Shown: piece after piece, positions 23,430 to 31,473 of the stretch | How positions within the stretch are numbered: the stretch's first letter is position 1 | How the letters are laid out: each line of letters opens with the position of its first letter | NCBI RefSeq assembly: GCF_900177515.1 | Contig: NZ_FXAK01000007.1 | Span: forward strand, 1,968,501-2,032,500 | Reading direction: 5' to 3' | From: Azospirillum oryzae | GTDB taxonomy: Bacteria; Pseudomonadota; Alphaproteobacteria; Azospirillales; Azospirillaceae | Length of the DNA stretch: 64,000 nucleotides | The notes under the pieces: generated by a model | Databases searched by the model: none | What the model was told of the DNA's origin: nothing | The model's input: only the letters and a program-made list of their open reading frames with translations | Made by a program: the position numbers and the translations under genes

Positions 23430-25979
23430 CTACCCCATCACCGACGCCAGCACCTGCACCACCTGATCCGACCCATAGGGCTTCTTCAGCACCGGGACGT
23501 CCGCGAACCGCTCCGGCACCGCAGCACTCTCGCCATAGCCGGTGGCAAAGACGAAGGGGACCCCCAGTTCCCGCAACCGCTCGGCGACCGCGAGCGAGGT
23601 CTCGTTGCCCAGGTTGATGTCCAGCACGCCGACCACCGGCGGGTCCTCGTCGATCAGGCGCAGGGCGTGGCGGACGCCGGCGGCGGTGTTGACCCGGCTG
23701 GCGTTGAAGCTCAGCAGCACGTCCTCCGTCGCCATGGCGATGATCATGTTGTCCTCCAGCAGCAGCACCGGACCACCGATGGAGAAATCGGCCGCAGGCA
23801 CCGGCAGGCTGCGCCGGCCGCTGTCCGGCAGGCTGGCGGCGACAGTGACATATTGGGCCGGGATCATGAAACGCGCCTGCAGGCCGGACAGGGCATAGGT
23901 CACCTCCGCCTCGCCCTGCAGATCGTGGGGGACGGAGCGCTCGATCACCGTGGTGCCGAAGCCGGTGCGCGACGGCGCCCGCACCGGCGGGCCGCCATTC
24001 TCCTGCCAGTCGATCAGCAGACGGCCGCCTTCGTCGATCGACCAGTCGGCCTCGACCCAGCCGCCGCTGTCGCTGAGCGCGCCGTACTTGGCCGAATTGG
24101 TGGTCAGCTCATGCACCACCAGCGCGAAGACGGAGAAGGCCTGCGGCGCCAGCAGCACCTCCGGCCCGGTCAGCCGCACCCGCTCGCTCTTGGCCGAAAG
24201 ATAGGCGCCGATCTCCGCCGCGATCAGGGCGCGCAGGGATGCCGGCCCCCAATTGTCGGCGGTGATCTGGTCATGGGCGCGGGCCAGCGCCTCGATGCGG
24301 CCGGCGACGATGGCGGCGAACTGCTGCACCGTCTCCGCCCCGGTCTCGCTCTGCCGCACCAGGGCACGGACGAGGCTGAGGATGTTGCGGACGCGATGAT
24401 TCAGTTCGGCGATCAGCAACTCCTGCCGCTCGGTCGCCTCCTTGCGGGTGCGGCCGGCGACGTCGGCCAGCCGCAGCACCACCTCCAGCAGGGTCACCCG
24501 CAGGGATTCGGCGTTGCGCTCGTCCAGCTCGCTCCAGGGCTTGGACCGGCCGCGCACGGTTTCCTTCCAGGCCTCGAAGCTCTTGCGCGGGGTCAAGCGC
24601 GGTCCGTTGGGGCCGTACTGCGCCGGCTTGGTCGGGTCGCCGCCCCAAGTGACGGTGCGGATCATCTCCTTGCGGAAGAAGACCAGATAGTCGCGCGGCA
24701 TGCGCGACACCGGGATCGCCAGCAGCCCGCAAGCCCGTTCGGTGAAGTCGCGGGCCGGCGGATGGACGGCCCCCAACTCGTCGGTCACATAGACCTTGCT
24801 GGGCGGCGTCCGGTGCAGGAAGCGCATGACGCCCAGCGTCTCCTCCCGCGTCGGCGTCTCGCCCTCCATGTGCAGCTGGCCGTCGGTGCAGCAGGCGAAG
24901 CCGTCGCACTCGATCAGGGTCCGCAGTTCCGCCGCGAAGGTGACGAGGCTGTCCAGCGGCGATTCGCTGTCGGCCAGCATCGACATGATGCGGACATGGG
25001 CGCGGCGGGCCTGCGCCTCCTGCTGGCTTTCCTGTTCGCGCTCCCGCCCTTCCAGCAGCAGCGAAACCATCTGGCCGAACAGCTCGGCGGTGGTGCGCCG
25101 TTCGAAGGAGAGCGAGCGGGCGTGACGGTGATGGCAGGCGAACAGGCCCCACAGTTTGCCGTGCCGCAGGATCGACACCGACAGCGAGGCGTTCACGCCC
25201 ATGTTGCGCAGATATTCGACATGGATCAGCGAGACGCTGCGCAGCAGGCTGAGCGACAGGTCCAGCGGCTGCCCCAAGGGATCGAGCATCGGCACCACCG
25301 GCACCGGCGGCGCGTTCACATCGGCGATGCAGCGCAACCAGTTGCGCTCGTACAGGCGCCGGGCCTGCTGCGGGATGTCGGATGCCGGATAGCGCTGGCC
25401 GAGGAAGCTGCCGATGCCGTGCACCGCCGATTCCGCGATCACTTCCCCCGACCCGTCGGGACCGAAGCGGTAAACCATGACCCGGTCGAAGCCGGTCAGC
25501 GCCCGCATCTGGCGCGCCGCCTCGCGGCAGAAGCCGTCGAAGCCGCGGGTGTTCTGGACCCGTGCGATCATCGAACGCAGCAGCGATCCCGAATCCTGCG
25601 GCCCCTCCCCCTCGCTCGGTTCCGCCTCGATCACGATGGTGGAGCCGGACAGGTGGACGGCAACGTCGCAGACAGGGGTGATGTCAGACAGGTGGATGCC
25701 GAAGGCCCGCTCGACGCTGCCGTTGATATGAGCGACCTGCAGCCGGCCACGGATGGTGTGCAGCGCCTCGCCCTTGATGACCCGCGACAGCGGATGCCCC
25801 AACAGGTCGTCGGGCTCCACCCCCAGCCAACGGCCGATGTTGGCGGAGACATGCAGGATGATCCAATCGGCCGTTACGGCGATCAGGAAACCTGTGGGCT
25901 GAATAAAACCCAGCTGGTGGATGGGCTCCCGGTCACAATCGGTGAGGTCGACAGACCCCGAAGGAACCGGGCCGCTCAT
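23430..25979 (-). CDS. bphP: Bacteriophytochrome: PAS-GAF-PHY, HWE-type histidine kinase, receiver
   Basis: 849-residue red/far-red photoreceptor. Cys15 in LTDCDREPIHQ is the biliverdin-binding residue of bacteriophytochromes. The GAF domain has YPASDIPQQARRLY and GVNASLSVSILRHGKLWGLFACHH; the PHY tongue has PRKSF. The kinase is HWE/HisKA_2 type: ELNHRVRNILSLVRALV (His528) and VVHELTTNSAKYGAL, WQENGG. A receiver domain closes the protein (LLLEDNMIIA, LDINLG, KKPY). One oddity is IQPTG where most phytochromes have IQPHG (Thr29). The upstream region has overlapping dyads at 26135-26162. It likely signals by autophosphorylation and intramolecular transfer. Confidence 0.93.
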   Translation of the reverse strand: MSGPVPSGSVDLTDCDREPIHQLGFIQPTGFLIAVTADWIILHVSANIGRWLGVEPDDLLGHPLSRVIKGEALHTIRGRLQVAHINGSVERAFGIHLSDITPVCDVAVHLSGSTIVIEAEPSEGEGPQDSGSLLRSMIARVQNTRGFDGFCREAARQMRALTGFDRVMVYRFGPDGSGEVIAESAVHGIGSFLGQRYPASDIPQQARRLYERNWLRCIADVNAPPVPVVPMLDPLGQPLDLSLSLLRSVSLIHVEYLRNMGVNASLSVSILRHGKLWGLFACHHRHARSLSFERRTTAELFGQMVSLLLEGREREQESQQEAQARRAHVRIMSMLADSESPLDSLVTFAAELRTLIECDGFACCTDGQLHMEGETPTREETLGVMRFLHRTPPSKVYVTDELGAVHPPARDFTERACGLLAIPVSRMPRDYLVFFRKEMIRTVTWGGDPTKPAQYGPNGPRLTPRKSFEAWKETVRGRSKPWSELDERNAESLRVTLLEVVLRLADVAGRTRKEATERQELLIAELNHRVRNILSLVRALVRQSETGAETVQQFAAIVAGRIEALARAHDQITADNWGPASLRALIAAEIGAYLSAKSERVRLTGPEVLLAPQAFSVFALVVHELTTNSAKYGALSDSGGWVEADWSIDEGGRLLIDWQENGGPPVRAPSRTGFGTTVIERSVPHDLQGEAEVTYALSGLQARFMIPAQYVTVAASLPDSGRRSLPVPAADFSIGGPVLLLEDNMIIAMATEDVLLSFNASRVNTAAGVRHALRLIDEDPPVVGVLDINLGNETSLAVAERLRELGVPFVFATGYGESAAVPERFADVPVLKKPYGSDQVVQVLASVMG

Positions 25980-28947: not shown

Positions 28948-29682
28948 TTAGCCGAACAGCGCGTCGATGTCGGCCTGGCTGATGTTGCCGCTCTCGGGCG
29001 TCGCTTCGGCCGGGCCGTGCAGGTCCAGGTCCTCGTCCTTCTTGGTGACGGACGGCGGCAGCGGCATCGCTTCGAACTCGCGCTTGTTCCACAGGCCCAT
29101 CATCGCGTCGACGCGCTCTTCGATGAAGGACATGGCGCGGACGACCTTGGTGATGCGCTGGCCGGTCAAGTCCTGGAAGTTGCAGGCCTCGTAGATGCGG
29201 ACGATGACGTCGACCATGTCGTTGACGCGGTCGTTGTGATAGCCCTCCGGCAGGGACGACTTCAGTTCCGACACCACCTCTTCCAGCTCTTCCGCGCAGG
29301 CCATGATGGTGTTGGTCGCGGCCTCCGTCGCGGCGACGACGGCGCTCAGTTCCTGGCTGGCCTGCTGGAACTTGTCGTCGCCGGCCAGCGGGTGGCGGAT
29401 GGCCGCCATTTCCACCTTGGTCGCCTTGATGCGGCCGGAGATGTCGGCGATCTCCACCTGGATCTGGTCGATCTGCGCCGCGTCCATGGTCAGGAAGCGG
29501 TCCAGCTTTGCGCCGAGATCGCCGATGGCGCGCAGCACCTCGGTGTTGTCGGCCTGGACGACCTGGGCCGGCACCGGAAGGGCCGCGGCCGCCGCGCCGT
29601 CCTCGATCAGGGACTGGAAGGGATGCCCGGATTTGCGGGCTTTCTGAAGCTCGGCCATGAAGGGCTTGGTCATCTGCTTCAT
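28948..29682 (-). CDS. cheZ: Chemotaxis protein phosphatase CheZ
   Basis: 244 residues, mostly helical with a long four-helix bundle. CNFQDLTGQRITKVVRAMSFIEERVDAM carries the catalytic Asp171 and Gln175, which dephosphorylate CheY-P. The extreme C-terminus, ISQADIDALFG (234-244), follows a flexible acidic linker and resembles the CheY-binding tail of CheZ and the FliM N-terminal peptide. It lies downstream of a longer CheZ paralogue and cheY on the same strand, 201 bp behind the former. ATG 29682 is used; the ORF extends upstream without similarity. Confidence 0.88.
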   Translation of the reverse strand: MKQMTKPFMAELQKARKSGHPFQSLIEDGAAAAALPVPAQVVQADNTEVLRAIGDLGAKLDRFLTMDAAQIDQIQVEIADISGRIKATKVEMAAIRHPLAGDDKFQQASQELSAVVAATEAATNTIMACAEELEEVVSELKSSLPEGYHNDRVNDMVDVIVRIYEACNFQDLTGQRITKVVRAMSFIEERVDAMMGLWNKREFEAMPLPPSVTKKDEDLDLHGPAEATPESGNISQADIDALFG

Positions 29683-29883: not shown

Positions 29884-30993
29884 CTAACCGAACAGAGCGT
29901 CGATGGCCGCCTGATCCAGCGGCACCGGCGGCTCTGCCGCAGCGGGCGGCGGAGGCGGGGCGGCAGGCTTGGGAGCGGCCTTGGCCTTCGGTGCGGCGCC
30001 CGGCGGCTTCGGAACCGGCTTTTTCGCCGGAGCGGGTGCGGGCGTGTCGAACATGCTGTCGATGTCCGACTGGCTCGCCACCGCCGGAGCGGCGGCGGGA
30101 GCGGGCGAATCGAACAGGCTGTCGATGTCGGCCTGACTCGCCTGGACCGGAGCCGCAGTGGGAGCCGGAGTGGGAGCCGGAGCGGGAGCCGGACTGTCGA
30201 ACATGCTGTCGATGTCGGCCTGGCTCGACTGGACCGGAGCGGGCGGTGGAGGCGGCGGCGGCGGGGCCGCGACCGGGGCCGGGCTGTCGAACATGCTGTC
30301 GACGTCGGCCTGGCTGACGCCGTGGCCGTCCAGCTGCGGACCGTTCAGCAGATGGGCGTCGGGACGGCTGTCCGTCTGCTCTTCCTTGACGATGATGCCG
30401 GCCAGCCCATCCTCGCCCCAGATGCTGATCATCGCCATGACGCGCTGCTCGATATAGCGGAGCGCGTTGACGACCTTGCTGGTGCGCTGGCCGGTCAGGT
30501 CCTGGAAGGAACAGGCGGTGAAGATGTCGTTCACCTGGGTGTCGATCTCGCCGCACATCGCGGGATCGGCGCCGCTGGCCCTGAGCTTGCCCGAAAGATC
30601 CATCAGCCGCTCCGCGGCGTTCAGGATCTCGAAGGACGCGCGTTCGGTCGAGATGACGATGGCGTCCAGCTCGTTGGTGGCGGACAGGATCTTGTCGCCC
30701 GACCCGTCGGGTGGCCGCAGCGCCGCCACTTCCCGCCGCGCCTGCTCGATCGAGGCGGCCATTTCCATCAGCTCGCGGCGCAGGACGCCGACATGCTTGC
30801 CGGCCTCCACCGCCTCGTTCTGGCGGTTCCAGGAGTCGCGGAACTCCTGGAGCATGGCGCGCACCTCCTCCGTCGCGGCCCCGAGGGACCGCCGGTGGAG
30901 CCGCCGCAGGAACGCCCTGCCCTTCGCCGATCGGGCGATGGCGTCCTCGATCTGCTCGAACTCCTCATCGGACAGCTGCGGAAGCTGCTCCAA
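29884..30993 (-). CDS. CheZ-like phosphatase with five C-terminal CheY-docking-like peptides
   Basis: 369 residues. Residues 1-205 form a CheZ-type helical bundle with CSFQDLTGQRTSKVVNALRYIEQRV, keeping Asp165 and Gln169. From 226 on, five copies of a peptide related to SQADIDSMFD (226-236, 256-266, 285-295, 306-316 and 359-369) are separated by Pro/Ala-rich linkers of 10-42 residues. The motif matches the tail of the neighbouring CheZ and the CheY-binding FliM peptide (SQAEIDALL). A multivalent CheY-P binder or phosphatase is inferred. Linker DNA is repetitive and coding. The gene follows cheY by 114 bp. Confidence 0.85.
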   Translation of the reverse strand: MEQLPQLSDEEFEQIEDAIARSAKGRAFLRRLHRRSLGAATEEVRAMLQEFRDSWNRQNEAVEAGKHVGVLRRELMEMAASIEQARREVAALRPPDGSGDKILSATNELDAIVISTERASFEILNAAERLMDLSGKLRASGADPAMCGEIDTQVNDIFTACSFQDLTGQRTSKVVNALRYIEQRVMAMISIWGEDGLAGIIVKEEQTDSRPDAHLLNGPQLDGHGVSQADVDSMFDSPAPVAAPPPPPPPPAPVQSSQADIDSMFDSPAPAPAPTPAPTAAPVQASQADIDSLFDSPAPAAAPAVASQSDIDSMFDTPAPAPAKKPVPKPPGAAPKAKAAPKPAAPPPPPAAAEPPVPLDQAAIDALFG

Positions 30994-31107: not shown

Positions 31108-31473
31108 TCAGCCGCCGATGACGGCCTGGATCTTCTGCTTCAGCGTGTCGGCGTTGAAGGGCTTGACGATGTAGTTGTTCACGCCGGCCTGCTTGGCGGC
31201 GATCACGTTCTCGGTCTTGCTCTCGGCGGTGACCATGATGAAGGGCGTCGCCGCCAGCTTCGCGTCCGCGCGGATTTCCTTCAGCAACTGCAGACCGGTC
31301 ATCGGCTCCATGTTCCAGTCGGAGATGATGAGGCCGAACTTGCTCTCACGCAGCTTCGCCAGCGCCGACACGCCGTCGCCGGCCTCGTCGATGTCGGTGT
31401 AGCCGATCTGGGTCAACAGGTTCCGCACGATGCGCCGCATGGTGGCGTAATCATCGACGACGAGGATCTTCAT
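31108..31473 (-). CDS. cheY: Chemotaxis response regulator CheY
   Basis: 121-residue single receiver domain: ILVVDDYATMRRIVRNLL (acidic pair), ISDWNMEPMTG (phospho-Asp), MVTAES and VKPFNADTLKQKI (Lys). The MRRIVRN helix and WNME sequence are typical of CheY proteins that bind the flagellar switch rather than DNA-binding regulators. It heads a minus-strand group with two CheZ-type genes, so signal and its removal are co-encoded. No cheA, cheW or receptor gene is adjacent. Confidence 0.93.
   Translation of the reverse strand: MKILVVDDYATMRRIVRNLLTQIGYTDIDEAGDGVSALAKLRESKFGLIISDWNMEPMTGLQLLKEIRADAKLAATPFIMVTAESKTENVIAAKQAGVNNYIVKPFNADTLKQKIQAVIGG

Follow-up and report, generated by a model that had tools for sequence, protein, structure and literature searches.

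The stretch of DNA analysed here, referred to below as the window, is 64,000 nucleotides of an Azospirillum oryzae contig (NZ_FXAK01000007.1), and its host genus is one of nitrogen-fixing soil and plant-associated bacteria that use several CheY proteins. On the minus strand a cheY gene (31108–31473; 121 amino acids) is followed by a cheZ gene whose product carries an array of docking motifs (29884–30993; 369 amino acids, TTG start; the start codons chosen by script for its orthologues are TTG or GTG), and then by a second cheZ (28948–29682; 244 amino acids, Pfam CheZ 38.1 bits) with a single terminal motif (28951–28980). The C-terminus of this second CheZ is ISQADIDALFG, and both neighbours are as an initial annotation of the DNA had described them. 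The intergenic gaps are 114 and approximately 200 bases. A scan of the locus for promoters and terminators found nothing promoter-like on either strand; the only terminator-like sites, two in number, are on the plus strand and are no excess over shuffles. Also on the minus strand of the window, at 23430–25979, is a bacteriophytochrome-like sensor (PAS_2, GAF, PHY) with an HWE histidine kinase domain, for which inspection by eye suggested a C-terminal receiver.

The Pfam CheZ profile (PF04344) matches residues 149–237 of the array protein at 48.5 bits, the curated cut-off being 30.7. Its score with the equivalog model for the E. coli type, NCBIfam NF008368, is 41.5 bits, below the 257-bit cut-off, and so it is to be regarded as a CheZ homologue rather than an E. 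coli-type equivalog. Residues 1–200 (30394–30993, minus strand) form the helical CheZ core, with AlphaFold2 helices at 9–20, 23–92, 100–140 and 144–198. Within it the heptad FQDLTGQ, residues 163–169 (30487–30507, minus strand), supplies by alignment the catalytic D165 and Q169, which we take to be the counterparts of D143 and Q147 in E. coli CheZ. That the core keeps its catalytic Asp and Gln had been claimed, correctly, and this DxxxQ pair is invariant in the 16 of 16 and 36 of 36 proteins of two alignments. The remainder, residues 201–369 (29887–30393, minus strand), is a Pro/Ala-rich tail, mostly unstructured by prediction, judging from linker composition in the genus and from the model.

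In this tail there are five copies of a peptide of the form [S/D]Q-x-[D/A]-[I/V]-D-x-[L/M]-F with Pro/Ala linkers between them, all encoded on the minus strand. Motif 1 is SQADVDSMFD, residues 227–236 (30286–30315; predicted helix 228–235), placed by phmmer alignment at the usual CheZ tail position. The others were found as pattern matches: motif 2, SQADIDSMFD, residues 257–266 (30196–30225; predicted helix 259–263); motif 3, SQADIDSLFD, residues 286–295 (30109–30138; predicted helix 288–292); motif 4, SQSDIDSMFD, residues 307–316 (30046–30075; predicted helix 309–313); and motif 5, DQAAIDALFG, of a terminal class, residues 360–369 (29887–29916; predicted helix 361–368). The initial annotation had put five copies of SQADIDSMFD type at residues 226, 256, 285, 306 and 359. 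The five sites stand, though each true start is one residue later, and four copies are of that type; the terminal one belongs to a distinct class with A for D at the fourth position, the position which we take to be that of Q204 in E. coli CheZ. Copies 2 to 4 repeat copy 1, and copy 5 is of the separate class DQ[AS]AIDALFG. Against the docking signature SQx[DE][IV]Dx[LM][LF] four copies fit, and the fifth has D in place of S and A at the acidic position.

Is the first of the five an addition at all? In a phmmer search of solved structures, residues 143–237 of the array protein align at E = 3.1e-4 with residues 121–211 of E. coli CheZ (1kmi_Z), through LLNGPQ and on into motif 1. On this comparison motif 1 is the ordinary CheZ tail position and not an extra copy, and through it the array CheZ would possess the C-terminal CheY-binding helix that lies past the linker.

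Chance emergence of such short motifs in a tail of low complexity can be set aside: 200,000 shuffles of the tail (151 residues) gave one motif in 34 cases and two or more in none, and the proposal of a five-peptide array is upheld. Nor are the motifs a product of the linker itself, as Skermanella-type tails are long and Pro/Ala-rich without having inner motifs. A sequencing or frame artefact is excluded by matches in 45 of 45 genomes of the genus. The linkers, described earlier as Pro/Ala-rich, are indeed 39% Pro and 36% Ala in the genus. At the DNA level Tandem Repeats Finder sees only fragments, with periods of 63 and 90 among others, and copy counts are therefore based on protein motifs. 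A plasmid search with the array gene gave 5 records, with a best query cover of 53%, and none of them covered the array.

CheZ is characteristically a dimeric four-helix bundle; the AlphaFold2 model here, of the monomer, is helical, with long core helices and a mean pLDDT of 66.9. In the tail the five motifs are the only places with predicted helices of at least four residues, in a region of low confidence (10-residue means of 41–63, and 72 at the end). A distant protein with eight motifs (L133) has predicted helices on six of them and one short extra helix at 207–210. With the low-confidence model Foldseek returned no match at E <= 0.001, and CheZ was absent among the matches listed by VIA-align 2; as low-confidence helical models match many long-helix proteins, nothing is drawn from the fold searches.

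The A. oryzae genome itself (7.67 Mb in 10 contigs) was searched for related proteins. Four CheZ proteins were detected with E-values under 1e-20: the array protein with five motifs, its neighbour with one, and two others, L002 with two and L003 with one, which also pass Pfam CheZ. A degenerate DNA pattern for the motif has 12 matches in the genome and its reversed control has 0. CheZ and FliM genes account for eight of these matches (three array copies, three other CheZ tails and two FliM proteins). The remaining four fall at three sites unrelated to these, including a palindromic one that is read on both strands and so counted twice. The docking signature precedes the FliM domain in each of the two FliM proteins, and this, with the 1kmi_Z alignment, agrees with the likeness to the CheZ tail and the FliM N-terminus that had been pointed out.

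Resemblance of the array motifs to the FliM peptides of the same genome is one of the reasons for considering that the array mainly holds CheY-P, as a buffer or decoy competing with FliM, and leaves much of the dephosphorylation to the neighbouring CheZ. That second CheZ is adjacent in all 44 genus loci, and five sites per subunit favour stoichiometric holding. We consider this unlikely. D165 and Q169 are kept in every protein of the two alignments and pN/pS in the core is 0.105, neither of which a pure sink needs. The initial annotation had suggested a multivalent CheY-P scaffold or sink working with the ordinary CheZ; with the catalytic core conserved a pure sink is less likely, and an intact catalytic site is more simply read as that of an enzyme that has gained docking sites.

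The product of the adjacent cheY is the likely partner. Its best solved relatives are CheY proteins, e.g., 2che and 2fka, and it is identical to the CheY of 2che, presumably that of Salmonella, at 70 of 118 positions. CheZ tail and FliM N-terminal peptides bind the alpha4-beta5-alpha5 face of CheY in a phosphorylation-dependent manner. In the 2che alignment the adjacent CheY keeps Y106, V108, F111, L116 and K119, with K92 replaced by T and T112 by N; K92 we take to be a FliM-contact residue, with a role in FliM binding presumed for the other positions also. The partner face is accordingly partly conserved in sequence, and the change of K92 to T counts against the docking-array reading. In the genus the array gene is flanked on the same strand by the cheY, upstream, and the one-motif cheZ, downstream, in 44 of 44 loci, and in the family a receiver gene is near an array or two-motif cheZ in 14 of 15 loci checked. 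The order cheY, array cheZ, cheZ suggests joint function, and the single transcription unit proposed in the initial annotation is a possible one.

A genome search with the adjacent CheY gave 14 receiver matches, itself included, the next best being 42% identical. Taken with the presence of three stable motif classes (VSQxDVD first, SQ[AS]DID inner and DQ[AS]AID terminal), this abundance of receivers would permit a division of labour in which the classes bind different receiver proteins. The near identity of the inner copies means that they do not have a private partner each, so that at most the first and terminal classes could be specialized, and of the alternatives dealt with here we rate this as the most improbable.

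How widely is the array maintained? All 45 Azospirillum genomes have a match to array cheZ, named relatives including A. oryzae, A. lipoferum, A. brasilense and others. The gene is cut by a contig end in one genome (G029; L061/L131) and this locus was excluded from motif counts; in another, G043, it is in two frames (L062, G043:C2:2055263-2056341), through either a frameshift or a sequencing error, and this locus is counted among the 44 read but excluded from the pair test. In these 44 loci the number of copies is 3 in 1, 4 in 19, 5 in 16, 6 in 7 and 7 in 1; the A. brasilense records read have four or five.

Such variation, from 3 to 7 within a genus, together with DNA that is partly repeat-like and a tail of low complexity, is what might be expected if the additional copies were neutral products of tandem-repeat slippage that contribute nothing beyond the first. 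The codons of the motifs tell a different story. When first copies are compared across genus genes pS is 0.381 and pN 0.0059, for last copies 0.325 and 0.0048, and for inner copies within one gene (119 pairs) 0.328 and 0.0207; the inner copies of a single gene thus differ synonymously and hardly at all in protein. For 125 close pairs, matched in copy number and with cores no less than 90% identical, pN/pS is 0.039 in motifs, 0.149 in aligned linker codons and 0.105 in the core, figures which are descriptive since the pairs are not independent; 1568 of 13132 linker columns are gaps. Purifying selection on the motif codons is stronger than on the core or the linkers. As motifs are recognized partly by conserved positions, two extra checks were made. 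Motif positions left free by the pattern, four in number, have a ratio of 0.040 and the five that it demands 0.050, and with the same ratio at free positions the signal is not a by-product of the pattern. Among the 44 genus genes no decayed copy was recognizable, and the 21 weak windows are all plain Pro/Ala linker. Inner copies in the genus have S at the free first position and D at the free fourth position in 120 of 120 cases. These conserved free positions, the lack of decayed copies among the 44 genes and the occurrence of arrays in separate lineages all tell against neutral expansion, which is very unlikely.

A search of alphaproteobacterial genomes for CheZ with repeated motifs, and comparison of their copy numbers, had been advocated, and the outcome is, in the loci read, 3–7 in the genus, 2 or 6–9 elsewhere in the family and mostly two or fewer outside it. 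In the family all 82 genomes, of 13 genera, have a match; the order-level search covered the same 82. Among fetched loci, orthologues of the Skermanella type (g13; long Pro/Ala tail) and of g2, g4 and g7 have two motifs, those of g3 have 6–9 in three uncut loci, and g8 has 7 and g9 has 8. Since Skermanella-type orthologues have two motifs only, the array is dispensable in near relatives. In a scan of named genomes for loci with the core FQDLTGQRTSK there were 49 loci, two of them cut by contig ends, with 2 motifs in 13, 3 in 2, 4 in 14, 5 in 9, 6 in 5, 7 in 4, 8 in 1 and 9 in 1. D is at the free fourth position in 107 of its 110 inner copies, as are I and F at their positions in 107 each, these two being restricted and not fixed by the pattern. 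The possibility that the acidic and hydrophobic positions vary freely in related species, which had been put forward as a ground for abandoning the idea, is answered by the D count here and by that in the genus.

Departures at key motif positions (ALM, DMD and AGID variants) do occur, in metagenome-assembled genomes outside the genus, and count against the docking-array reading. Near-motif copies are SQADIDALMS, NQAGIDSMFD, DQSDMDALFG and NQADMDALFD (L071/L137, G050; L066/L135, G046; L067/L138, G049; L068/L136, G048), and these are perhaps weaker, retuned or decaying docking sites. A few counts from such genomes shift by one depending on whether ALM or DMD variants are allowed, and those for L067/L138, L073/L140 and L225, cut by contig ends, are minima.

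At E <= 1e-10 CheZ is present in 155 of 387 alphaproteobacterial genomes. Outside the family 63 tails were read, in a non-random set for which loci were picked on their rank among the matches, a long open frame and a spread over families, and to which several genomes contribute two or three loci. At most two motifs are present in 59 of these tails, and three or four in the other 4. The exceptions (G380 with 4 motifs, and G440, G314 and G320 with 3) have acidic or mixed linkers. Three of these loci, L222, L228 and L229, belong to one family and the fourth, L242, to another, and they are apparently separate expansions. In L216, L226 and L227 two docking motifs are fused without a linker, e.g., DQDEVDQIFSQAEIDALFD, perhaps giving one continuous helix that binds two CheY molecules. 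On a tree of 177 CheZ cores, made by a quick method and with many weak forks, the character 'three or more motifs' requires 5 label changes, of which starred branches force 3. A single gain followed by two losses could account for the 3 forced changes, so that repeated origin is probable rather than proven. In the same tree L121 (NZ_QOKW01000035.1), titled Roseomonas genomospecies 6, falls inside Azospirillum, and the label looks wrong. Many of the alphaproteobacterial loci read have two-motif tails, and arrays of 3–9 are found in several Azospirillaceae lineages, which makes the array an extreme of a graded multi-motif CheZ tail. The initial annotation knew of no CheZ with such an array: no description was found in the literature searched either, but the protein is not a solitary oddity, with 3–9 copies in several lineages.

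What would so many docking peptides do? The analysis provides CheZ membership, motif identity, conservation, purifying selection, copy-number differences and linkage to cheY, and the reading which we favour, with moderate confidence, is that each copy is a tethered CheY-P docking site raising capture and repeated dephosphorylation by a catalytically competent CheZ dimer, copy number being an adjustable gain. The single CheY-P docking helix of CheZ would have been multiplied along a flexible Pro/Ala tail, so that if the protein is dimeric like E. coli CheZ the five peptides per subunit become ten per dimer. CheY-P would dock on any motif and be held at high local concentration beside two active sites, to one of which, if E. 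coli CheZ is a guide, the flexible tail would present it. Dephosphorylated CheY would leave because unphosphorylated CheY is expected to bind less well, and neighbouring motifs would refill the active site with the next tethered CheY-P. The array should then lower the level of CheY-P required for half-maximal phosphatase rate, make dephosphorylation processive and keep some CheY-P away from FliM, with the gain shifting between species via gain and loss of repeat units.

The main rival, and one with wider consequences, is that CheY-P bridges docking sites and active sites of different dimers, giving assemblies that are possibly polar or phase-separating and a cooperative switching of phosphatase activity. 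A bridging model, with highly active CheYp-dependent oligomers, has already been proposed for the one-motif E. coli CheZ in the accessible part of an earlier report (PMC1447658), and if it holds the extra docking sites, ten per dimer on flexible linkers, would strengthen CheY-P-linked assemblies. Bridging is unnecessary, as a tail can reach its own active site, and such a network seems to us improbable, to about the same degree as the buffer.

On the favoured reading of tethered sites with adjustable gain, a bacterium may tune the ending of a swimming signal via its number of docking peptides. A broader proposal, which we offer as tentative and somewhat doubtful, is that chemotactic gain is under evolvable control through the number of docking sites in CheZ, a state reached independently in different lineages. 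The array would act as a CheY-P capture hub with as many as nine motifs per subunit, and its valency would determine sensitivity, memory and the threshold for switching, possibly by way of CheY-P-driven CheZ networks at the cell pole. The textbook CheZ has one docking helix per subunit, and here is a natural series of one to nine on the same catalytic core, which makes the effect of valency on signal termination testable, including the earlier idea that CheY-P links CheZ into oligomers of high activity. The array also provides a clear example, in bacteria, of the repetition of a linear motif under selection.

Among known systems, E. coli CheZ (PF04344; 1kmi) shares with the array protein the FQDLTGQ active site, the linker and the LLNGPQ...SQxxVD tail peptide, and has a single terminal docking helix in contrast to five on Pro/Ala linkers. 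The FliM N-terminal CheY-binding peptide likewise has an SQxEIDxLL-type signature, which the two FliM proteins encoded here share; it is one copy on a motor protein, with an L end, as against five on a phosphatase with an F end. As far as can be told from the available portions of the papers concerned, the C-terminal helix of E. coli CheZ, on a flexible tether, holds the main affinity for CheYp (PMC1447658) and Q204L in the C-terminal peptide is reported to lower phosphatase activity (PMC12270135). A nearer counterpart is the CheZ of Azorhizobium caulinodans, also alphaproteobacterial, for which the text at hand gives D165 and Q169 together with a conserved C-terminal region that binds CheY (PMC7750401, PMC8563088). 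There a single C-terminal helix is modelled, residues 225–236, the place of motif 1 here, and an array is unmentioned in those portions of the two papers. Its polar localization is independent of CheA (PMC7750401, in part), and according to excerpts of a further report a cheZ and another cheY are located away from the main che cluster (PMC8429497). For A. brasilense, CheY6 and CheY7 sit outside che1 and che4 in a source whose available text lacks the word 'phosphatase' (PMC8100600), and in RNA-seq of strain Ab-V5 a maize compound raised a cheZ, the paralogue being unspecified in the part accessible (PMC12421955). Closest in form are the two-motif alphaproteobacterial CheZ proteins (Rhodospirillum-type, Niveispirillum, Skermanella), where a first motif again comes after an LLNGP-like sequence and a terminal SQ or DQxxIDxLF follows, with a linker of zero to >100 residues and, unlike the array protein, no inner copies. 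In the open PMC literature, with most subscription papers outside its scope, no description of repeated docking motifs in CheZ was found in the text available. Within the literature searched the array is undescribed; it is real and conserved, probably a recurrent elaboration of a known enzyme, and an extreme one rather than a new kind of system.
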